Positions 3,314 through 19,707 of a stretch of DNA of 34,345 nucleotides are shown here, piece by piece. Each line of letters starts with the position of its first letter. The first letter of the stretch is position 1. The position numbers and the translations under genes were made by a program. Below the pieces are notes generated by a model. The model was not told the origin of the DNA and searched no databases. It saw only the letters and a list, made by a program, of their open reading frames with translations. The stretch is from Corallococcus sp. (GTDB lineage Bacteria > Bacillota > Clostridia > Christensenellales > CAG-314): the NCBI GenBank assembly GCA_023667435.1, contig JAMPAB010000011.1, positions 1 to 34,345 of the forward strand, in the 5' to 3' direction.

Positions 3314-3625
3314 TTATATGCTGTTGTTTATGCCTAGAATTGAAATGAAATTTTGGTCTTTGCGGAATACGCGTATAACGTCTATTGCGTCGGTAACGTC
3401 GTAAATTACTATGTATACGTTATGTACGATTAAGTATCTCAACGCGGTTGTTCTTTCTACAAACTTTTGCAACGCCGCGCCCATATTGGGAAATTGCGCA
3501 AGTTTTTCTATTCCGTCATAGATGTACTCTACTTGGTTACGCGCTATTTGTTCCCCGTCCTTTTGGACGTAACGGTATATGCCGAGTATATCGCTGTGAG
3601 CTTCGGGAGTAAGCCGTATTTCCAT
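3314..3625 (-). CDS. RelE/ParE-family toxin
   Basis: This encodes 103 residues, the usual length for the family. The N-terminus MEIRLTPEAHSDILGIYRYV matches the helix-rich start of ParE/RelE toxins, and the end carries the strand pattern with the LRYLIVHNVYIVIYDV core and the IDVIRVFRKDQ motif typical of the plasmid-stabilisation family. Family members poison gyrase (ParE) or cut mRNA on the ribosome (RelE); which applies cannot be told here. It begins three bases after the antitoxin stop, behind a GGGG ribosome site within that gene's last codons. The antitoxin is expected to bind and neutralise it and to repress the shared promoter. Confidence 0.85.
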   Translation of the reverse strand: MEIRLTPEAHSDILGIYRYVQKDGEQIARNQVEYIYDGIEKLAQFPNMGAALQKFVERTTALRYLIVHNVYIVIYDVTDAIDVIRVFRKDQNFISILGINNSI

Positions 3626-3628
3626 AGT

Positions 3629-3904
3629 TTACCCCAGCACTGCCTTTTTGCTGTCTGCAAGGCTAATATACCCTTGCGTTTCGGCAGACTTTACGCCGCG
3701 TTCTATTTCGTTAAATAACTTTTGCTCCGCAAGCACTTTTTGCGGTACTTTTAGTTCGAAGGGCAAACCGCCTTGCAATTCCACTTGTTTATAAAACAAT
3801 TTAATTGCGTCGGCAGACGTAAGTCCCAATTGCGCGAATATGCTTTCTGCGCTGTTTTTTAGATCCGTCTCTATACGCGTATGCAACGTAGAAGTTTTTG
3901 CCAT
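3629..3904 (-). CDS. RelB/DinJ-type antitoxin
   Basis: This encodes 91 residues from the ATG at 3904, which is preceded by GGGAGG; upstream in-frame starts lie in the promoter region. The N-terminal half (MAKTSTLHTRIETDLKNSAE... and LGLTSADAIKLFYKQV) is the ribbon-helix-helix DNA-binding domain of RelB/DinJ proteins. The GGLPFEL segment after it is typical of DinJ relatives, and the C-terminal half is the charged toxin-binding tail. It is first in a two-gene operon with the toxin and presumably autoregulates it. Confidence 0.85.
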   Translation of the reverse strand: MAKTSTLHTRIETDLKNSAESIFAQLGLTSADAIKLFYKQVELQGGLPFELKVPQKVLAEQKLFNEIERGVKSAETQGYISLADSKKAVLG

Positions 3905-3933
3905 GATGCTGCCTCCCATTATATTATATGAAA

Positions 3934-3962
3934 ATTGTATCACAAATAAATAGTTAAGTCAA
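3934..3962 (-). promoter_or_regulatory. sigma-A promoter of the toxin-antitoxin operon
   Basis: On the minus strand, TTGACT (3957-3962), 17 bases, then TACAAT (3934-3939), about 30 bases ahead of the antitoxin ATG. Confidence 0.75.
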
Positions 3963-9890: not shown

Positions 9891-10343
9891 TTACCCGTTG
9901 CCGCGCTTCGATTTGAAATATTCCGTCAAAAGCGCGGAACATTCTTTCTCCGACACTCCTCCGCATATGTTGACTTCGTGATTTAAAGTACGCCCTATCA
10001 TTTCGGAAAGATGAATACATCCGTTGCCGCTAAGATCGTACGCGCCGAAATACACGTTGGCAATACGCGCGTTGTAACACGCGCCCAAACACATTACGCA
10101 GGGCTCGAGCGTGACGTACAAATCGCATCCGTTAAGACGCCAGTCTCCCAGCTTTTTACAGGCGCGGCGTATAGCGACAAGCTCTGCATGCTCGACGGCG
10201 TTTTTGCTTTTGTTCCTTGTGTTGCGCGCCTTTGCAATTATTTCGCCGTTTTTTACCACTACCGCGCCGATAGGCACTTCGTCGAGTCGCGCCGACATTC
10301 GCGCCTGTTTGAGCGCTTCGAGCATAAACCGTTCGTCTGTCAT
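9891..10343 (-). CDS. tadA: tRNA-specific adenosine deaminase TadA
   Basis: This encodes 150 residues, the family length. TadA deaminates adenosine 34 of tRNA-Arg(ACG) to inosine so that one tRNA reads several Arg codons. The zinc-dependent deaminase motif is complete: His52 and Glu54 in AEHAE-like context (VEHAEL), and Cys82 and Cys85 (PCVMC). Helix FMLEALKQA and the VPIGAVVV strand are typical. The ATG overlaps the stop of the upstream glycosidase gene (ATGA), so it is translationally coupled to it and probably transcribed from that promoter, an unusual pairing for a housekeeping gene. Confidence 0.95.
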   Translation of the reverse strand: MTDERFMLEALKQARMSARLDEVPIGAVVVKNGEIIAKARNTRNKSKNAVEHAELVAIRRACKKLGDWRLNGCDLYVTLEPCVMCLGACYNARIANVYFGAYDLSGNGCIHLSEMIGRTLNHEVNICGGVSEKECSALLTEYFKSKRGNG

Positions 10344-12073
10344 AGCTTTACTCTTCTGTTTATTTCGCGCATCATTTTAGCGTCGACCTTCAACACCTTT
10401 CTGTCGTAAGTATACAATCCGTTTACTTCGTCTTCCACGTCCGATACTTGCGTATAAACGGTTGCGGAAAGACCTTTGTCTATCCATGCGATTACGTCCC
10501 GTTCGTAAAGTCGGTATAAACCGTCGTTAAAGTCCTTTGCGGTGTCGAACTTCTTATAACTGAACGTATGGTCGGGATTGAAGCTGTGTTGCGCGTCTTT
10601 GTAGCTGTATCCGCCGAACTCCGTTAAACATACCGCGCGGTTTTTATCCTTTTTTAAACGCACTTTTTTAAAGTATACGTGCATACTGTTGATATCTCCG
10701 CCGCCCTGATCGTGCCAACCGCTTGCGTGGTCTACGGTACGGGTAGGGTCAATGTCTTTTGTAAGCTGCGCTATTTTATTTGCGTCGAATTGTCCCCACG
10801 CTTCGTTGAAAGGCACCCACATAGCTATGCTTACGCAATTATAAAGCTGATCGAGCATTTCTGTGTATTCCGCAACGTACGTATCGCGGCTGACTTCGCT
10901 CTTGCGCGAAAACATTCCGTAATGACTGTCCTTGATTTTGTTCATTCCGATATTAGGCAAAATCAACGTGACGGATTTGTGCTGTTTCGTTCCTCCGCTG
11001 GGCATATCCTGCCAAACAAGCATTCCCAACCTGTCGCAATGATAGTACCAGCGCATAGGTTCCACTTTGATATGCTTACGCAGCATATTAAAGCCTAAGT
11101 CTTTCATCGCCTTTATGTCGAACTGCAACGCTTCGTCGCTGGGCGCGGTATAAAGTCCGTCGCTGTAATACCCCTGATCCAGCAGTCCGTTGTGAAAGTA
11201 CGGTTCGTTGTTTAGCATCAAGCGGTAATATTTGCCCGCTTTTTCGCAGGAAAACTTGCGCATGCCGAAGTAGCTTTCGACGGTGTCGCGTCGGGAAATA
11301 ATTTTAAGATTGTAAAGGAACGGGTCTTCGGGCGACCACAGTTTAAAAATATCATGCGGAAAATGCAGTTTTACCGCGCCTTTTCCGTCGCCTTTCATTA
11401 TCTCTTTGTTTCCGTCGTACACTATCACCGTTACGGGTTCGTCGAAATTCGTTTCCGACTCGACGGTTACCGTCGCGTTGTCGATATCGGGCGTAATACG
11501 GATAGACTGAATATACTGCGACGGAACGCTTTCCAACCATACCGTCTGCCATATTCCGCTTTGCGGCGTGTACCACATTCCTTTGCGGTGAGTGGACTGC
11601 TTGCCGTTGGCGTAATACGCCGTGTCGGTAAAATCTCTAACGCGTACGATCAATTCGTTGTTTTCGCCGAGCGCTTCGGTAACGTCTGCGGTAAAAGCGT
11701 TGTAACCGCCTTCGTGATGACAAACGTTGACGCCGTTGACGAACACGTCGCAAATGCAGTCTACCGCGCCGAAATTAAGCAAAACTATATCTTTAACGAA
11801 GTTCTTCGGCAAAGAAAACTCCGTGCGGTAAAACAAATATTCTTTCGGCTTTAGCTGACGGTTCACCCCCGACAGAACGGATTCGGGTGAAAACGGTACG
11901 AGTATTTTTCCGTCGTAAGCGGCGGGAATTTTGTCGGAATCGGTAATGGCGTAATCCCAGTAACCGTTGAGATTGACGTAACTTTTGCGTACGAACTGCG
12001 GACGGGGATATTCCTGCAAAGGTTTGTCTGTGATCTGTTCTCCCCAAACGGTAGTTAACTGTTGTAACGGCAT
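10340..12073 (-). CDS. glycoside hydrolase family 2 enzyme (beta-galactosidase/glucuronidase type)
   Basis: This encodes 577 residues from the ATG at 12073, which has AAGGAG upstream; the longer frame runs into the promoter. Family 2 enzymes hydrolyse beta-linked galactosides, glucuronides, mannosides and similar with retention. The layout is a jelly-roll sugar-binding domain (about 15-180, RTEFSLP, FVNGV), an Ig-like domain (about 185-275) and a TIM barrel (about 280-577). The acid/base is Glu424 in PFNEAWGQ and the nucleophile is probably Glu485 in LTEFGG. No signal peptide is seen, so it acts on imported oligosaccharides. Substrate cannot be assigned. It overlaps tadA by four bases. Confidence 0.9.
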   Translation of the reverse strand: MPLQQLTTVWGEQITDKPLQEYPRPQFVRKSYVNLNGYWDYAITDSDKIPAAYDGKILVPFSPESVLSGVNRQLKPKEYLFYRTEFSLPKNFVKDIVLLNFGAVDCICDVFVNGVNVCHHEGGYNAFTADVTEALGENNELIVRVRDFTDTAYYANGKQSTHRKGMWYTPQSGIWQTVWLESVPSQYIQSIRITPDIDNATVTVESETNFDEPVTVIVYDGNKEIMKGDGKGAVKLHFPHDIFKLWSPEDPFLYNLKIISRRDTVESYFGMRKFSCEKAGKYYRLMLNNEPYFHNGLLDQGYYSDGLYTAPSDEALQFDIKAMKDLGFNMLRKHIKVEPMRWYYHCDRLGMLVWQDMPSGGTKQHKSVTLILPNIGMNKIKDSHYGMFSRKSEVSRDTYVAEYTEMLDQLYNCVSIAMWVPFNEAWGQFDANKIAQLTKDIDPTRTVDHASGWHDQGGGDINSMHVYFKKVRLKKDKNRAVCLTEFGGYSYKDAQHSFNPDHTFSYKKFDTAKDFNDGLYRLYERDVIAWIDKGLSATVYTQVSDVEDEVNGLYTYDRKVLKVDAKMMREINRRVKL

Positions 12074-12100
12074 ATTGAATTTTTCTCCTTTTACCGTAAT

Positions 12101-12129
12101 ATTGTAGCACAAACCGAACTTAAAGTAAA
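12101..12129 (-). promoter_or_regulatory. sigma-A promoter of the GH2-tadA unit
   Basis: On the minus strand, TTTACT (12124-12129), 17 bases, TACAAT (12101-12106). Confidence 0.65.
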
Positions 12130-12270
12130 CAGGCAAACGCGCAATGCGTTTATTTTATTACTCTGTAAAATTGTACGTCAGATACGGATGCACATTGCGC
12201 CGACCGTTATTTCAATCGGTGATAATACTAGACTTATTTGAAGAAATTCCGAAAAATAACGTCGCGATCA

Positions 12271-12338: not shown

Positions 12339-13862
12339 TTATTTTTTAGCAGTTGTTTTCTTTGCGGGCGACTTGCCTTCTCCGCCTTCGTGCGTCAAAG
12401 AACCGATACCTATTCTCTCCTTAGTTTCCTTGTTGAAAAGAATAATTCCGTTGCCGACCGTTTCGAAAGTAACTTCCTGATTTATGGCGTAGTCTACTCC
12501 GCCGAAAACAACGGACGTAAGAATTTCTTCGCCGACGGAGAGTTTAACCGTCGTTTCCATACCTGCGGGCAGGTTGGCGTAAATGGTCGCCTTGATATCG
12601 CCTTGTTCCAAACGCAGGAATTCGGGACGAACGCCCACTACTACGTCGAGTTCGCCTTCGGCGTTCAATTCGTCGCATTCGAACAGGAATTTTTCGCCCA
12701 ATGCCTCTATCTTGGCTTTGTTGCCTTTTATTACCGCTTTGCCTTGAATGAAGTTCATCGTGGGGTTACCTACGAAGTCCGCAACAAACAGGTTGTTGGG
12801 CTTGTTGTACGTAACGAGCGGCGGATCGTACTGTTGCAGTAAACCCATACTCATCAGGCAAACTTTCGTAGCAAGCGTCATAGCTTCCAACTGGTCGTGA
12901 GTAACGTAAACGAAAGTGGAATCCGTTTCGGAATGCAGACGTTTAAGTTCCGTTCTCATTTCCATACGCAATTTTGCGTCGAGGTTGCTTAACGGTTCGT
13001 CCATGAACAATACTTTGGGACTTGTTGCCAACGTTCTCGCTATCGCTACGCGCTGCTGCTGTCCGCCCGACAGTTCGGCGGGATATCTGTGCATAAAGAT
13101 ACCGATTTTAAGTATACGCGCTACGCGTCTTACTTCGAGATCCATTTCTTCTTTCGACAGTTTGCGAACGCTCTTTACGACTTCGCCGTCCTTTACGTAT
13201 TCGAAACTGTCGTTCAGTTCCGCGCCGTCCTTTGCCGCAGCTTCCTTCGCCGCAGCTATGACTTTGTTCTGTTCCTCTATTGCGGCGGAAACAACGTCTT
13301 CGGGGTTAGTCGCCGCAGCAAGATTGTACGACATAAGTTTCTTGGCGGTATACTGCGAAATAGTATACTTGTCGATAAGCGCAAGTTGAAGCTTGTTCAT
13401 TTCCGACTTGCTCTTAGCCTCTACCGCTTCATCGCACTCGCGCGTAATATCGACGATTTCCTGCCAGTTGCCGAGAATATCGATTATGCGTTGCGCAACG
13501 CGAGCGTCAAGAGCGATTTTCGGTTTTTCTTCCTTCATATTTTCCAAACCGAAATGAATGTTCTGATAAACGGTCATATGCGGCCACAAAGCGTAGTTTT
13601 GGAACAGGAAACCGATATTGCGCTTACCGGGAGCGACGTTGATACCTTTTTCGCTGTCAAACATTACGGTGTCGCCTATCGTTATGCGTCCTTCGGTGGG
13701 CGTTTCGAGACCCGCGATCATACGCAAAGTCGTAGTTTTACCGCAACCGGAAGGTCCCAATAACGTTACGAAACCGCGATCTTCTATTACCATATTGAGG
13801 TCTTCGACCGCAACGAATTTATCGAATTTTTTTGTTACGTGTTCTAATACAATTTTAGGCAT
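12339..13862 (-). CDS. ABC transporter ATP-binding protein with ~120-residue insert
   Basis: This encodes 507 residues, against about 350-380 for the MalK/AfuC/PotA type it otherwise resembles. It drives import through the adjacent permease. Visible parts are Walker A at 36-43 (GPSGCGKT), the Q-loop at Gln88, signature LSGGQ at 264-268, Walker B ending at Glu289, the switch His322, and a C-terminal TOBE-like regulatory region (about 370-485). The helical subdomain between Q-loop and signature, normally about 60 residues, is extended by about 120 mainly helical residues (about 112-237, Ala-, Lys- and Glu-rich). The tail is basic (AKKTTAKK). AGGAGG precedes the ATG. It is last in the five-gene operon, starting 5 bases after the permease stop. 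Confidence 0.93.
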   Translation of the reverse strand: MPKIVLEHVTKKFDKFVAVEDLNMVIEDRGFVTLLGPSGCGKTTTLRMIAGLETPTEGRITIGDTVMFDSEKGINVAPGKRNIGFLFQNYALWPHMTVYQNIHFGLENMKEEKPKIALDARVAQRIIDILGNWQEIVDITRECDEAVEAKSKSEMNKLQLALIDKYTISQYTAKKLMSYNLAAATNPEDVVSAAIEEQNKVIAAAKEAAAKDGAELNDSFEYVKDGEVVKSVRKLSKEEMDLEVRRVARILKIGIFMHRYPAELSGGQQQRVAIARTLATSPKVLFMDEPLSNLDAKLRMEMRTELKRLHSETDSTFVYVTHDQLEAMTLATKVCLMSMGLLQQYDPPLVTYNKPNNLFVADFVGNPTMNFIQGKAVIKGNKAKIEALGEKFLFECDELNAEGELDVVVGVRPEFLRLEQGDIKATIYANLPAGMETTVKLSVGEEILTSVVFGGVDYAINQEVTFETVGNGIILFNKETKERIGIGSLTHEGGEGKSPAKKTTAKK

Positions 13863-13867
13863 TTCTA

Positions 13868-15706
13868 TTAACCTCCTATTCCTTTATCAAGCGATGCGCC
13901 CGTAAGTTTGTTGATGATGAACTGGAACAACAAGATTGTTACGATGATAATCAGGTTGATACCGTTTGCAACGGGCGTTGCGCCGTGCAAACCGTTGTTC
14001 GTCCAGTCTTGCAATACTACCGTAAGTAACGATCCCGCCGGAGCAAGCAATACGAACAGCGACATTTCTCTCATACAGGATATAAACGGAAGCAAATAAC
14101 CGCTCATAAAGCTTGATTTCTGAATGGGGAACAAAATACGCGTCATACGTTTTCCCCAGTTTGCATTCATCATAACCGCCGCTTCTTCGATTTCGCCCGA
14201 AACCTGCAACATCGCGTTCGTTCCCGTACGGGACGCAAACGGCAGGAATTTGACGCCGCCTACCAGCAGCAACAGTATAAAGCTGCCGCTGAGGAACGAC
14301 ACCGAGCTGGAAACGCTCAGATATATCGCGCCGAAACTCAACGCGGGGATAAGGTACGGGAAGAATGCCATATTGGATACCAACGTGGCAAGCTTGCTTC
14401 CGCGCTTGTGCGATACTGCGTAACCTACGAGTATACCGCACGTTCCCGCAATCATCGCCACGCACAGAGACAAACCGATGCTGTACCCGAACGATTTCCA
14501 AATCGTTCCGTTGTGAAGGATACCCACTTTGTCGCCGGTAACGCGTTCGGACAGCCTGTCCATCGTAGTCCAGTAGTACAACGTCCATTCGCCGTTAGGA
14601 CAGAAGCTTTCGAGAGCGAACGATACCAACGGCATAATAGCCGTAAACACTACGACGATTATAATAAGCACCGCAAACACCCAGCGCCATACCTTGCCGA
14701 GCTTAACAAGCGACGCCTGACCGGATTTTCCGCTGACGGTCGTAAAGGATTTGCGTTTGCCCGTAAACCAGTTGTTCAACGTCAGTATCGCCACCGAGAA
14801 CAGAAGAAGTATAATAGCTATAACGTAGCCTCTCCCTCGCGTACCGGGATCGCCTGCAACCGACCGCAGCTGCGTGGAAATCGTAGTAAATTTACCGTCT
14901 CTGTTCAAGAACGCGGGAACGGTATAACTGCTTATGCTGCTGGAGAATACCAACAATACGGTGGAAATGAGAGCTGGAGCCACGATAGGCAACGTGATTC
15001 TGCCCAAAATTTTTCCGCGACCCGCTTTGAGTACGGTCGCCGCTTCTTCGAGGTTGGCGTCCATATTGCGCAGAATACCGCCTATAAGTATGTACGCGAA
15101 GGGCGCGTAGTGAATACCCAAACACATTGCCGTAGGCAAAAAGCCGTACACCATCCACTGCGGAACGCATAGACCGTGCTCCGCGCCGCCCGTTATCATC
15201 TGCAGCATACCCACTTGTTTTGCGTCCGTCGTCAAGTTTGTGTTCTTGAAGAAATTTTCCCAGAACATTGCGATAGACCAACTGGGCATAACGTACGGAA
15301 ATACGAATACTGTGGAAATAAACTTTTTGAAAGGCAAATTAGAGCGCGTAATAAACCACGCCGTTACTCCGCCGCCCACAACGGCGACAAGACAGGCGAC
15401 GAGCGCCATTGCTATAGAGTTGCCTAACGGCTTCCAAAACGCATTTTTAGAATAATCGTGCGTTTTATTGAACAGTATGTTGCTCCAGTGCAATCCCGTA
15501 AATTTACCTAGCGGTAACTTATAGACCCTTGCTTCGTTTACCGTACTGATTCGAAACGAGTCGATCACGATTGTAAATAACGGAGCGACGACGGTGATTG
15601 TAAGAACAATCAGGAATACGATAGTAACGACGTTGGCAGGCTTACCGAAATAGGTCTTCAGATTGTTGCCTAACTTTTTTAATTTAAGATTTTTGTCGTT
15701 AATCAT
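13868..15706 (-). CDS. fused double ABC permease (AfuB/FbpB type)
   Basis: This encodes 612 residues with about twelve membrane helices in two homologous halves. Each half carries the ATPase-docking EAA loop: EEAATVLKAGRGKILGRITL at about 220 and a second starting EEAAVMMNANWGKR at about 508. One chain therefore supplies both membrane subunits, as in the AfuB/FbpB class first described for ferric iron but also known to move hexose phosphates and organophosphonates. AAGGAG lies just before the ATG. It is preceded by the binding-protein gene after an 80-base gap containing a stable hairpin, and followed closely by the ATPase gene. A substrate cannot be read from the permease alone. Confidence 0.93.
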   Translation of the reverse strand: MINDKNLKLKKLGNNLKTYFGKPANVVTIVFLIVLTITVVAPLFTIVIDSFRISTVNEARVYKLPLGKFTGLHWSNILFNKTHDYSKNAFWKPLGNSIAMALVACLVAVVGGGVTAWFITRSNLPFKKFISTVFVFPYVMPSWSIAMFWENFFKNTNLTTDAKQVGMLQMITGGAEHGLCVPQWMVYGFLPTAMCLGIHYAPFAYILIGGILRNMDANLEEAATVLKAGRGKILGRITLPIVAPALISTVLLVFSSSISSYTVPAFLNRDGKFTTISTQLRSVAGDPGTRGRGYVIAIILLLFSVAILTLNNWFTGKRKSFTTVSGKSGQASLVKLGKVWRWVFAVLIIIVVVFTAIMPLVSFALESFCPNGEWTLYYWTTMDRLSERVTGDKVGILHNGTIWKSFGYSIGLSLCVAMIAGTCGILVGYAVSHKRGSKLATLVSNMAFFPYLIPALSFGAIYLSVSSSVSFLSGSFILLLLVGGVKFLPFASRTGTNAMLQVSGEIEEAAVMMNANWGKRMTRILFPIQKSSFMSGYLLPFISCMREMSLFVLLAPAGSLLTVVLQDWTNNGLHGATPVANGINLIIIVTILLFQFIINKLTGASLDKGIGG

Positions 15707-15786: not shown

Positions 15787-17007
15787 TTATTTGCTTGCCA
15801 ACTTGGAAGCAACGAACGTTTTAACGTCATCGCCGTGTTCGGCAGTGTATTGACCGTTTTCTTGCAAAACTTTGTTTACGTCAAGTTCGTACGTAAAGTT
15901 AGCGCCGGAATCGGTGTTGGGAGCAACTTTAGCATTGGGAGAAGAATATCCAACGTCTTTCCAACCTGCTTTAAATCCGTCGGAAGTAAGGATATATCTT
16001 GCAAACAGGCAAGCGGTGTAAGGAAGTCTGGATGTTTTGGGAACGTTCAGATAAGTGTTGTACGTAAATCCGTTGTAGCCTTCAACGTCTCCGTCAACGC
16101 CCGAATAGAACAAATCTTCGTGCCAGTTCTCTCCGGAGTAACCCTTCGTTTTGTTAAGACCTACTACGAATACCGTTCCCGTCGTGTCTGTTTCGAGAGT
16201 TTCGCTGAGAACCTTAGAGTCGGAACCGTGTAAGGTCGTCAAAGCAGCGATATATTCCTGAATGAAGTAGTAACCGATATTTGCGCAACCTGTTTGAGCC
16301 GTGTAGTCGTTGCCCGTGTAGCTCTTGTAAGCAGCGGCAAGCTTCGTGCAAGCTTCGGGACTTGTCAACATAATCATGAACGCCATGTTGATGCCTTCGT
16401 TGTTGGGGTCTTGGATAGAAGAACCCTTAACCTTTTGAAGAGAAGCGCCTGTAACATTCGTCAACTGCCAAATGTTGGTAAGAGTAACGGTTGTGGCGGA
16501 CTTTTTGTATGCAAACAGTTTGTCTGCGTACAAACCTACGAGAGGTTGCGTAGCAGCCGCATTTAACTGAATTTGATCGTCGTTTTTGGGAACGTAGTTA
16601 TACAAATAACCTGTGTCTACCCACGTTTGAATGTTTTCGGCAATCTGAATCATCGTGAAGTCTGCATAGTAATTGTTGTTTGCAAGAGTCGAGTTGATAG
16701 CGTCGGATGCAACCTTGTCCTTAGAAGAGCTGAAATCGTTGTAATCGAACCAAGCATACTTTTCTTTGAACTTCGTCAGAACTTTGCCTACGCCGGACGT
16801 CGTAGCCTGCGCCGTAAACTTAAGACCTGCGGCTTTGAATTCCGCTTCCGCCGCAGCTTCCAATGCCGCCAAATCCATGTTGCTGGCAGCTTCAACGGCA
16901 GCTTTTACTTCTTCGGGGGTAGGATACTTCGTACAAGAAGCAAGCACTGCTACCACAGATACGATCATAACTACCGCAAGAACAACTGCAAATAATTTTC
17001 TTTTCAT
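15787..17007 (-). CDS. ABC transporter substrate-binding lipoprotein
   Basis: This encodes 406 residues from the ATG at 17007, chosen for AAGGAG just upstream. The lipoprotein signal peptide has a Lys-Arg start, a hydrophobic core and lipobox LASC with Cys25, so the mature protein is anchored outside the membrane. The remainder has the two-lobe type-II binding-protein pattern, including a late region rich in Tyr, Gly and Trp (GYSGENWHEDLFYSGVDGD) likely to line the pocket. The ligand is unknown. The partner permease is of the AfuB class and the upstream genes encode an aldolase and an isomerase-like barrel, so a sugar or sugar phosphate is a better guess than iron; no iron-ligand tyrosine pair could be confirmed. 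Confidence 0.9.
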   Translation of the reverse strand: MKRKLFAVVLAVVMIVSVVAVLASCTKYPTPEEVKAAVEAASNMDLAALEAAAEAEFKAAGLKFTAQATTSGVGKVLTKFKEKYAWFDYNDFSSSKDKVASDAINSTLANNNYYADFTMIQIAENIQTWVDTGYLYNYVPKNDDQIQLNAAATQPLVGLYADKLFAYKKSATTVTLTNIWQLTNVTGASLQKVKGSSIQDPNNEGINMAFMIMLTSPEACTKLAAAYKSYTGNDYTAQTGCANIGYYFIQEYIAALTTLHGSDSKVLSETLETDTTGTVFVVGLNKTKGYSGENWHEDLFYSGVDGDVEGYNGFTYNTYLNVPKTSRLPYTACLFARYILTSDGFKAGWKDVGYSSPNAKVAPNTDSGANFTYELDVNKVLQENGQYTAEHGDDVKTFVASKLASK

Positions 17008-17066
17008 ATTTTTTCTCCTTATAAATTTTATATTTGTACCGATTTTGTCGGTAGAAACCATATTGA

Positions 17067-17999
17067 TTACGCTTTATTTGCGCTTCCCATAACGTTTACG
17101 AGCCTGTCGTAAACAAGGTCGGCAACCGCTTGCCGCGCAGGAGCGAGAAATTCGCTCGCGTCCCACTTGTCGGGTTTGAGAGCAAACAGCTTGCGCAGTT
17201 CGCCGAAATAGCATATCCGCAAATCGCTTGCCACGTTTATTTTGCATACGGCTTTTTTCGCAGCTTTGCGCAGCATTTGTTCGGGGATTCCTATCGCTTC
17301 GGGCAGTTTGCCGCCGTATTCGTTGAAAATATCCAGTCTTTCCTTAGGAATGGACGACGCTCCGTGAAGAACCAACGGAAAATCGGGAAGCAGTTTTTCT
17401 ATCTCGTCTAATATATCGAAACGCAAAAACGGTTCCTGACCGGGTTGATACTTGTACGCTCCGTGACAGGTGCCTATGGAAATCGCCAAACTGTCTATTT
17501 GAGCGCGTGTTACAAATTCTGCTACGTCGGAAGGACGGGTAAACTGTCCGTACTTGCCTGCGACTTCGATATCTTCTTCCTTGCCGCTGACGACGCCCAG
17601 TTCGCTTTCCACCGCTACGCCGTACTTATGCGCGTAATCGGCTACTTCGCGGGATATTTTTACGTTGGTATCGAAATCGTACAGCGACGCGTCTATCATT
17701 ACGGAAGTAAAACCGTTATCTACGCAGCGCTTGCACAAATCGACGCTTTTGCCGTGATCGAGATGAAGAGCTACGGGAATATCGCTATACTTTTCGGAGG
17801 CGGCTTTAAGCGCTTCCGTCACGTACGGGACGTCGTTTATCATTCGTCCGCTTACCGCTATTATAACGGGCGATTTTGCCTTAGACGCGCCCGTTAATAC
17901 GCCTTCCATAATATCTACGCTGTCAACGTTAAACGCGCCTATCGCGTAACCTTCTTTGTACGCTTTGGCGAACATTTCTTTTGTCGATACAAGAGCCAT
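17067..17999 (-). CDS. fba: class II (zinc) fructose/tagatose-bisphosphate aldolase
   Basis: This encodes 310 residues. Class II aldolases split fructose- or tagatose-1,6-bisphosphate into two triose phosphates. Catalytic Asp81 and zinc ligand His82 lie in HLDHG, further zinc ligands are His179 (GTCHGAYK) and His212 (LHGASS), and Glu133 lies in ESELG. The phosphate-binding loop reads NVASDL (255-260), between the NIDTDL of many FbaA enzymes and the NVATEL of tagatose-type GatY/KbaY, so fructose versus tagatose specificity is open. The ribosome site is weak. It lies 20 bases after the isomerase-like gene and before the transporter genes, which ties it to catabolism of the imported sugar rather than to central glycolysis. 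Confidence 0.93.
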   Translation of the reverse strand: MALVSTKEMFAKAYKEGYAIGAFNVDSVDIMEGVLTGASKAKSPVIIAVSGRMINDVPYVTEALKAASEKYSDIPVALHLDHGKSVDLCKRCVDNGFTSVMIDASLYDFDTNVKISREVADYAHKYGVAVESELGVVSGKEEDIEVAGKYGQFTRPSDVAEFVTRAQIDSLAISIGTCHGAYKYQPGQEPFLRFDILDEIEKLLPDFPLVLHGASSIPKERLDIFNEYGGKLPEAIGIPEQMLRKAAKKAVCKINVASDLRICYFGELRKLFALKPDKWDASEFLAPARQAVADLVYDRLVNVMGSANKA

Positions 18000-18019: not shown

Positions 18020-18844
18020 TTATTCGATGCCGCTTCTTTCCATTTGCTTGGAAAGAGTAGCGTAGGAAAGTTCCATAAACTGCTCGGCGTTCAACTTGCC
18101 CAAATACTTGCTCGTTGCGTTGCAGTAACTTTCCAGATTTATCCGTTTTACGTCGAAATGTTTGAGTCTTGCAAACACTTTATCGAAATCGACTATTCCT
18201 TCGCCCATTAAGTGGTGCTGATCGGGTTCGTTGCCTACAGGTCCCATATTGTCGTGGATATGCGTCGTTACCAACATATCTCCGTACTTTTCGAGGGGCA
18301 GTTCGTTAGGCGTATAACAGTTGGCGTGTCCCGAATCGAAACAGAATCCGATATTTTCGTCGGGCGCGAAACGCTGTAAAATATAATCGTTGTACCGCAG
18401 AAAACGCGTGTTTTCTATTGCGATTACAACGTTGTGCCTCTTTGCCGAGTTAAGCATTTTATCGAAATTGACAATGCCTTTTTCGTTCGGTTCGGGCGTG
18501 ATGAGTTTACGCGTAAGATGCACAACCAAATTTTTTACTCCGCGTTCTCCGCACTCTCTGCAAGCTTCGTCGAATTGCTTTACGTATTGTTCGGCGCGCT
18601 CGTCATCGTACCAAAGAAATTCGGCATGAGTGGACGGGAAGTGACAGGTGTTTACCGCAAGTCCCAAAGACAACGCGGTATCGAACAAATCGAATCGTGT
18701 GCCGTCGGTAGCTTCATACTCGTCCCCCCACCAAAACATAGTCTCGTCAAAACCCGCTTTCTTAATTGCGGCAAGTCTTTCCTGCGGCGGAACGTCGTAA
18801 AAACCGAATCTGAAATTTTGACCTTTTTTCACAGTCGAAGTCAT
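18020..18844 (-). CDS. sugar phosphate isomerase/epimerase-type TIM barrel (AP-endonuclease 2 family)
   Basis: This encodes 274 residues, usual for the xylose-isomerase-like barrel family whose members interconvert or epimerise sugars and inositols using a divalent metal. Likely metal ligands are Glu144 (AIEN), Asp170 and His173 (FCFDSGHAN), the THIHDN motif (His195/His197) and Glu238 (LESY). GGGAAG precedes the ATG. It is the first gene of the carbohydrate operon, followed by the aldolase. The substrate is unknown. Close relatives also include DNA-repair endonuclease IV, but the operon context and motif spacing favour a sugar enzyme. Confidence 0.88.
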   Translation of the reverse strand: MTSTVKKGQNFRFGFYDVPPQERLAAIKKAGFDETMFWWGDEYEATDGTRFDLFDTALSLGLAVNTCHFPSTHAEFLWYDDERAEQYVKQFDEACRECGERGVKNLVVHLTRKLITPEPNEKGIVNFDKMLNSAKRHNVVIAIENTRFLRYNDYILQRFAPDENIGFCFDSGHANCYTPNELPLEKYGDMLVTTHIHDNMGPVGNEPDQHHLMGEGIVDFDKVFARLKHFDVKRINLESYCNATSKYLGKLNAEQFMELSYATLSKQMERSGIE

Positions 18845-18894
18845 TATTTCTTCCCTAGTACAACCCTAATTCAAAAATTATCCACTTTGCCATA

Positions 18895-18995
18895 AAGTAT
18901 ACCCCCCCCCGTATAGTTTTGTCAATACCGATAGGCAAAAATAAAAAATACGATTGCTTGTTCGCAAATGCTTTCGTTCGGGGAGGGGTATACTT
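18895..18995. repeat. 16-bp inverted repeat pair around the operon promoter
   Basis: The left arm 18895-18910, read on the minus strand, and the right arm 18980-18995, read on the plus strand, are GGGGGGGGGTATACTT and GGGGAGGGGTATACTT, 15 of 16 identical. They enclose 69 bases that carry the TTGACA box of the operon promoter. Each arm contains a TATACT -10 box. Confidence 0.8.
18896..18925 (-). promoter_or_regulatory. promoter of the carbohydrate operon with G9 tract in its spacer
   Basis: On the minus strand, TTGACA (18920-18925), an 18-base spacer whose last nine bases are all G (18902-18910), then TATACT (18896-18901), about 50 bases before the ATG. Slippage in the G tract would alter the spacer from 18 to 17 or 19 and so change promoter strength. 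Confidence 0.75.
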
Positions 18996-19170
18996 AGGAA
19001 CGGCGTACTCCGAAAAGAACGACTTTACGGCGAACGGACCGTTAAGCATCCTCTGATTGCTGCTCGGCAAAAACTTTTTTCTTGACGAATAAATACCGAC
19101 CTCGACGCAATACGTACCAACGGGTATGCCCGTTGAAAACGGGCGCTGACGTCTTTACGGCAAAATACGG
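18996..19170. other. intergenic DNA with competing small palindromes
   Basis: No gene is supported. AACGGG (19119-19124), CCCGTT (19129-19134) and a second AACGGG (19138-19143) can pair in two mutually exclusive ways, but they lie upstream of the dut promoter and have no T-run, so a role is unclear. Confidence 0.4.
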
Positions 19171-19199
19171 TTGAAAAAGAATAAATTGTATGATACAAT
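19171..19199 (+). promoter_or_regulatory. sigma-A promoter of dut
   Basis: TTGAAA (19171-19176), 17 bases, TACAAT (19194-19199), about 28 bases ahead of the ATG. Confidence 0.75.
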
Positions 19200-19227
19200 A
19201 AAAATACTTACGCGAGGAACGGAAAAA

Positions 19228-19707
19228 ATGAGAATAAAAGCAAAATTCGAAAAAGTGAGCTACGGCGTTTACGCGGCAAACGGAGACAGGGAAACTTACG
19301 ATAATATCAAATTACCCGTTCGCGCTACCAAATGCAGCGCGGGTTACGATTTCTTTGCTCCGAACGCGATAACTCTTCAACCGAACGAAACGGCTACGGT
19401 AGCGACCGGCATACGCGTTATTATGCCCGACGACGTTTGTCTGATGATTTTTCCGCGCAGCGGATTAGGATTTAAATACAGACTGAAGCTGAACAATACC
19501 GTAGGAATTATAGACGCCGATTACAGCAATTCGGACAACGAAGGGCACATATTCATACGAATGACCAACGAAAGCGACAAACCGCTTTTTATAGATAAAG
19601 GCGCCGCATTTGCGCAGGGCGTATTCGTAAATTATCTTATTACTTCAAACGACGCAACGGAAGAAGAAAGAAACGGAGGGTTAGGGTCTTCGGATAAAAA
19701 GCGGTAA
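19228..19707 (+). CDS. dut: dUTP diphosphatase (trimeric dUTPase)
   Basis: This encodes 159 residues from the ATG at 19228; the longer frame begins inside the promoter, and GAGGAACGG precedes this ATG. The enzyme hydrolyses dUTP to dUMP, keeping uracil out of DNA and feeding dTMP synthesis. All five family motifs are visible: AGYDFFA (38-44), PRSGLG (76-81), NTVGIIDADY (90-99), KGAAFAQGVF (124-133) and RNGGLGSS (148-155). Motif V has Leu where Phe usually stacks on the uracil ring, and an Asp follows where Thr-Gly is common. An insert around 100-106 (SNSDNEG) lengthens the loop after motif III. It is convergent with uvrC. Confidence 0.9.
   Translation: MRIKAKFEKVSYGVYAANGDRETYDNIKLPVRATKCSAGYDFFAPNAITLQPNETATVATGIRVIMPDDVCLMIFPRSGLGFKYRLKLNNTVGIIDADYSNSDNEGHIFIRMTNESDKPLFIDKGAAFAQGVFVNYLITSNDATEEERNGGLGSSDKKR

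Follow-up and report, generated by a model that had tools for sequence, protein, structure and literature searches.

The leftward sugar-uptake operon of the analyzed window (the whole stretch of 34 345 nt) is preceded by a promoter whose spacer contains an uninterrupted run of nine G. We consider it likely that this site is a sigma-A-type promoter with a slipping G9 spacer that tunes the operon, and that it is a member of a genus-wide set. This set consists of independently placed poly-G spacer promoters, which mostly drive surface lipoproteins. We observed the promoter geometry, its recurrence, a statistical excess of the motif, a functional bias of the genes behind it and, in related species, a G-rich spacer kept at the same operon.

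Architecture of the leftward promoter and its operon

The promoter is strong, with the highest promoter score of the intergenic region, and is located 57 nt ahead of gene 1 of the leftward operon, in agreement with the sequence-only reading, which had proposed a leftward promoter (TTGACA, 18 bp, TATACT) into a carbohydrate operon. The G9 run lies directly upstream of the −10 box, so that a homopolymer is found between TTGACA and TATACT, as in slipped-strand phase-variable promoters, whose tracts have about 8 nt or more. The positions of the promoter elements and genes are listed in Table 1. The operon lipoprotein probably has a substrate-binding role, as it adjoins the permease. Orthologues of the operon aldolase are also found downstream of a poly-G promoter in several species. 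No Rfam match was obtained in the window, and an RNA element was rejected.

Table 1. Promoter elements and genes around the G9 tract, with positions in the window
Feature	Position	Strand	Details or basis
Promoter TTGACA-AAACTATAC-GGGGGGGGG-TATACT	18896–18925	−	−35 at 18925–18920, −10 at 18901–18896, spacer 18
G9 homopolymer, proposed slippage tract	18902–18910	−	Genus-wide class, bimodal G-run lengths, one-G differences
Right arm CGGGGAGGGGTATACTT	18979–18995	+	Orphan copy of the class motif, interrupted and lacking a −35
Xylose-isomerase-like TIM barrel (PF01261), operon gene 1	18020–18844	−	Pfam
Class II fructose-bisphosphate aldolase (PF01116), operon paralogue	17067–17999	−	Pfam
Probable ABC substrate-binding lipoprotein; signal peptide and lipobox (VLASC)	15787–17061	−	Sequence; no Pfam match
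ABC permease, two BPD_transp_1 stretches	13868–15706	−	Pfam
ABC ATPase with MalK-like OB domain	12339–13862	−	Pfam
Glycoside hydrolase family 2 (GH2)	10340–12136	−	Pfam
dut promoter TTGAAA-17-TACAAT, separate	19171–19199	+	Promoter scoring
dut (dUTPase, PF00692), divergent neighbour	19228–19707	+	Pfam

Regarding the neighbourhood of the operon, dut is divergent from it in the window (18845–19707) and at locus L073, and lies upstream in the same orientation at L072 and L075; this change of orientation within the L072–L075 set is a local rearrangement around the operon promoter. At the left end of the window a Zot-like ATPase and a RelE/RelB-like toxin–antitoxin pair were recognized by eye (1022–1807 and 3314–3943), and this region is probably a mobile element.

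Poly-G spacer promoters in the genome, the genus and the order

A search for GGGGGGTATANT in the genome that contains the window (G000; 1.54 Mb in 77 contigs) resulted in eight sites and zero control matches. Seven of the eight consist of TTGAC[A/T], about 9 nt, G8–10 and TATA[C/G]T with a spacing of 17–19, while at the eighth site TTGACA is located 11 nt from that box and 19 nt from a second TATACT. Starting from the G runs instead, TTGAC was found at most 20 nt upstream in 12 of the 31 distinct G7+ runs examined in this genome, compared to one case downstream and none for the reversed word; the expectation by density is 2.4% and the excess upstream has a P of ∼3e-12. The tract is therefore over-represented relative to composition and non-randomly placed. 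From the recurrence of the motif and the TTGAC excess it follows that the sequence from the G tract to the −10 box, which forms the left arm of the inverted repeat discussed below, is a recurring promoter motif.

Promoters with a G8+ spacer were observed in 19 of the 25 genus genomes, with 2 matches to the reverse-pattern control in total. Counting only tracts that abut the −10 box, we obtained 72 distinct promoters, with G9 as the most frequent tract length and a spacer that has its mode at 18 and ranges from 15 to 20. Across the order the pattern is patchy, being present in 52 of 297 genomes (0 control matches) and represented in 22 of 125 genera. Candidatus Fimimonas (L074) is placed under Myxococcota at NCBI, which is likely a misplacement, since the relatives compared here carry the label Clostridia.

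Identical poly-G promoters occur on several contigs of one assembly (G021, C10/C30/C33/C38; G025, C24/C40/C49; G017, C37/C51; G024, C11/C18). They are often near contig ends and form repeated families, which seem to break the assemblies.

Runs of G could also be sequencing or assembly artefacts of two-colour Illumina chemistry, since every genome that was read is a metagenome bin or has an unknown origin, and some copies lie close to contig ends. However, the runs lie within contigs, in exact register with the promoters and on one strand relative to the gene, and they are found at orthologous genes in independently assembled genomes with reverse-pattern controls near zero. We regard an artefact as scarcely credible, and the conservation across species has already largely refuted it.

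Genes behind the poly-G promoters

We compared the products of the genes behind poly-G promoters with a background gene set. Lipobox proteins made up 20 of 56 such genes versus 27 of 289 in the background (odds ratio 5.4, p 2.5e-6), where the background was drawn from this genome alone and the promoters from several genomes, and the choice of ORFs differs slightly between the two sets. Domains found among the targets include Listeria–Bacteroides InlB-type repeats (Flg_new), BspA LRR and Big_2. The targets are thus biased towards surface products, and the window operon, a transporter that contains a lipoprotein, fits this bias.

Signs of a mutable tract

For an estimate of how G runs are distributed we counted them in 408 kb of the genome. 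There were 613 runs of G4, 78 of G5, 5 of G6 and none of G7, followed by 5, 5, 5, 2 and 1 runs of G8 to G12 (18 together). The lengths are therefore bimodal, with a depleted shoulder, a gap at 6–7 and a separate population of long runs, which is the mark of maintained repeats. Against a mutable tract, the lengths within the class are tight, mostly 9–10. Promoters with the same flanks but one G apart were observed in this genome (G10 on C11 versus G9 on C25) and between two copies in G073, and one-G differences also occur in the same-flank pairs G012/G019 and G301/G244 from different species. Loss of mismatch repair was considered as a cause of the poly-G runs and rejected, as MutS_I was found in 23 of the 25 genus genomes. 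With MutS present, slippage need not be fast and its rates cannot be guessed.

In the proposed mechanism, one G would be gained or lost in the G9 tract through slipped-strand mispairing when the DNA is replicated. Each such change would shift the −35/−10 spacing by 1 bp (17 bp for G8, 18 bp for G9 and 19 bp for G10) and would also alter the helical phase between the boxes. The changed spacing would then alter the transcription level of the leftward sugar-uptake operon, and the result would be a reversible cell-to-cell variation in its expression. We infer that promoter strength depends on tract length because the ordinary promoters of this genome show a sharp spacing peak at 17 bp; the poly-G promoters, with their mode at 18, are one slip away from this optimum. 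Judged from the sequences, it is probable that the tract slips within a population and that this slippage affects transcription.

Long G runs are also located near the starts of some coding genes, and the gene start is the usual site of translational phase variation. An in-frame G12 follows the ATG of an Acyl_transf_3 protein by eight codons (L032, G000:C44 ∼53041), and a G9 lies within an MBOAT protein (L031, G000:C40 ∼10790); both tracts are candidates for translational phase variation of cell-surface acylation. In two related neighbouring genes (L024 and L025, G000:C22 56126 and 58068) a G11 is found just upstream of the likely starts. These genes carry a metallo-beta-lactamase-like HAHxDH motif and one of them encodes a lipoprotein.

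The operon promoter in related species

We next consider the operon promoter in other species, where it was located upstream of the TIM gene or, if this gene is missing, upstream of the operon-type aldolase. It was recognizable in nine species including this one, and in the eight others it points into the operon. A pure G9 is present in six of the nine: it abuts the −10 box in the window and in G013, G012, G023 and G016, and in G011 it lies 3 nt off the −10 box at a spacing of 16. The remaining three carry interrupted tracts at a spacing of 18, namely G020 (G8TGG), G007 (GGGGAGGGG) and G002 (GCCGAGGGGCG). Those upstream regions of the housekeeping aldolase paralogue that we read contain no such tract.

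The total spacing of 18 is accordingly kept in eight of the nine species, including those with interrupted tracts, and this is the best evidence for an alternative in which the G-rich spacer is functional as such, either as a fixed operator (e.g. for a regulator with affinity for G tracts, such as the CsoR/FrmR-type repressors) or as a stiff structural spacer tuned to 18 bp. Also in line with it, ‘AC’ often precedes the tract and the combination of G9 with a 9-base non-G part dominates the class. Locked contingency loci would give the same 18-bp interrupted pattern. A CsoR/FrmR-type operator has two symmetric half-sites around a short G tract; the window reads ACTATAC-G9-TATACT, but other members of the class do not conserve the left half, and the non-G half of the spacer is likewise not conserved and lacks a second half-site. 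Moreover, tract position (touching −35, central or touching −10) and total spacing vary widely over the class, and a tract that changes its place in the spacer is easier to reconcile with a length device than with a fixed operator. Interrupted versions, which an operator would tolerate, are rare genus-wide, and the bimodal runs include tracts near coding starts, where an operator makes no sense. We therefore think a fixed operator or structural spacer unlikely and favour the slipping G9 spacer.

An inverted repeat, very probably without an invertible switch

The sequence-only reading had proposed the site as a candidate two-way inversion switch. The inverted repeats on which it was built are real: a repeat search returned arms of 17 nt at 18895–18911 and 18979–18995 with 16 of 17 bases (94%) complementary and 67 nt between them. 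By base composition the chance of such a match within a few hundred bases is ∼1e-6, so the pairing of the arms is not accidental. The left arm consists of the G9 tract and the −10 box of the leftward promoter, and both arms terminate exactly where the promoter motif (G tract, −10 box and T) does, which fits two instances of one recurring motif. For the right arm no −35 box was found, the best candidate matching 3 of 6 bases at 14–21 bp. Its sequence GGGGAGGGGTATNNT occurs once elsewhere in the 25 genus genomes, in the operon promoter of G007. We take the right arm to be an orphan and possibly a decayed divergent copy of the class motif.

If a recombinase flipped 18911–18979, the −35 box would face the operon and dut by turns. 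Apart from the arms themselves, six matches from a search of the genome for tyrosine recombinases speak for such an inversion; all of them are on other contigs, and by this search no invertase gene adjoins the site. Against it, no second arm was seen upstream of the orthologous operon genes in the eight other species; the arm symmetry is thus not conserved in relatives, which was one half of the refuting condition set by the sequence-only reading. The arm motif recurs across the genome. Among 62 distinct poly-G promoters this locus is the only one with an inverted copy within 500 bp. Gut Bacteroidales invertons, which switch promoters of surface functions stochastically, have inverted repeats around the promoter and need a recombinase and conserved arms, whereas here the repeats flank the promoter at this locus in this genome only. 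The assembly shows one orientation of 18911–18979. The suggested rightward drive towards dut is not borne out, as the right arm lacks a −35 box and dut has a promoter of its own. Likewise, the equal distances of 9 and 18 bases expected after inversion carry no weight, because this symmetry arises automatically for anything between inverted arms. The G run remains a plausible switching device from the evidence of the poly-G class, but its combination with inversion found no support. Given the missing arm in relatives, the single case among the 62 class members and the separate dut promoter, we rejected the invertible switch as the main reading and consider it very improbable. Caution is thus called for with an inverted repeat that flanks a promoter, since its arms can be copies of one recurring promoter motif and not the ends of an invertible switch.

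Two further candidates at this site were discarded. A rightward promoter over the left arm (TTGCCA-19-TATAGT, 18887–18917, score 9.0) is not kept in the sequences of relatives. The stretch 18949–18972 shares 23 of 24 bases with a tyrosine integrase gene of contig C65 (L003 1501–1524; E 6.5e-4). The match falls within the coding sequence, a short way upstream of the HxLRHT motif, and is probably a coincidence and not an attachment site.

DISCUSSION

Phase variation through a homopolymer in the promoter spacer is known from textbooks as a device of some few pathogens. The best reading of our data is a parallel to the slipped-strand contingency promoters of the Neisseria porA or Treponema tp0126 kind, here at the scale of a Clostridia genus.

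In Treponema pallidum tp0126 a poly-G lies between the −35 and −10 boxes and transcription is optimal at a total of 17 bp (PMC7864442). The promoters described here resemble tp0126 (and tpr) in the poly-G spacer, the 17-bp optimum and the surface protein targets. However, tp0126 and tpr belong to a spirochaete pathogen in which length variation was demonstrated by fragment analysis and reporters, whereas the variation proposed here is deduced from sequence comparison, and the targets here include a sugar-uptake operon. For Neisseria meningitidis porA (poly-G) and opc (poly-C), van der Ende 1995 and Sarkari 1994 are cited in PMC5084427 for promoter homopolymers that alter −10/−35 spacing and expression, and a comparison with tprL is made in PMC7864442. 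The likeness is a promoter homopolymer between the boxes, which here would act on spacing and expression in the same manner; the difference is that porA and opc are single outer-membrane genes of a Proteobacterium, while a standardized G9/18-bp arrangement is found at about a dozen loci per genome in a Clostridia genus. Bifidobacterium breve, a Gram-positive gut commensal, also has a G-tract switch, in which replication slippage controls pili as surface structures (PMC9187656), but its tract is inside the coding sequence and not in a promoter spacer. In a literature search of incomplete coverage we found no work combining Christensenellales with phase variation and none on poly-G promoter switching in Clostridia or Firmicutes.

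Taken together, the site is a probable phase-variable promoter with a poly-G spacer, remarkable for the genus-wide scale on which such promoters occur. Copying slips in the G runs probably raise or lower, in a random manner, the expression of many surface lipoproteins and of the sugar-uptake operon. It is an evenly balanced question whether this amounts to a combinatorial phasome in a whole uncultured Clostridia genus, in which about a dozen independent G9-spacer promoters per cell and some coding G tracts would randomize at least one sugar-uptake operon as well as surface lipoproteins, while the order as a whole shows the architecture in patches. That one standardized promoter architecture is repeated across the genus, in front of adhesin-like lipoprotein genes and of a nutrient operon, suggests large-scale use of this device by commensals.
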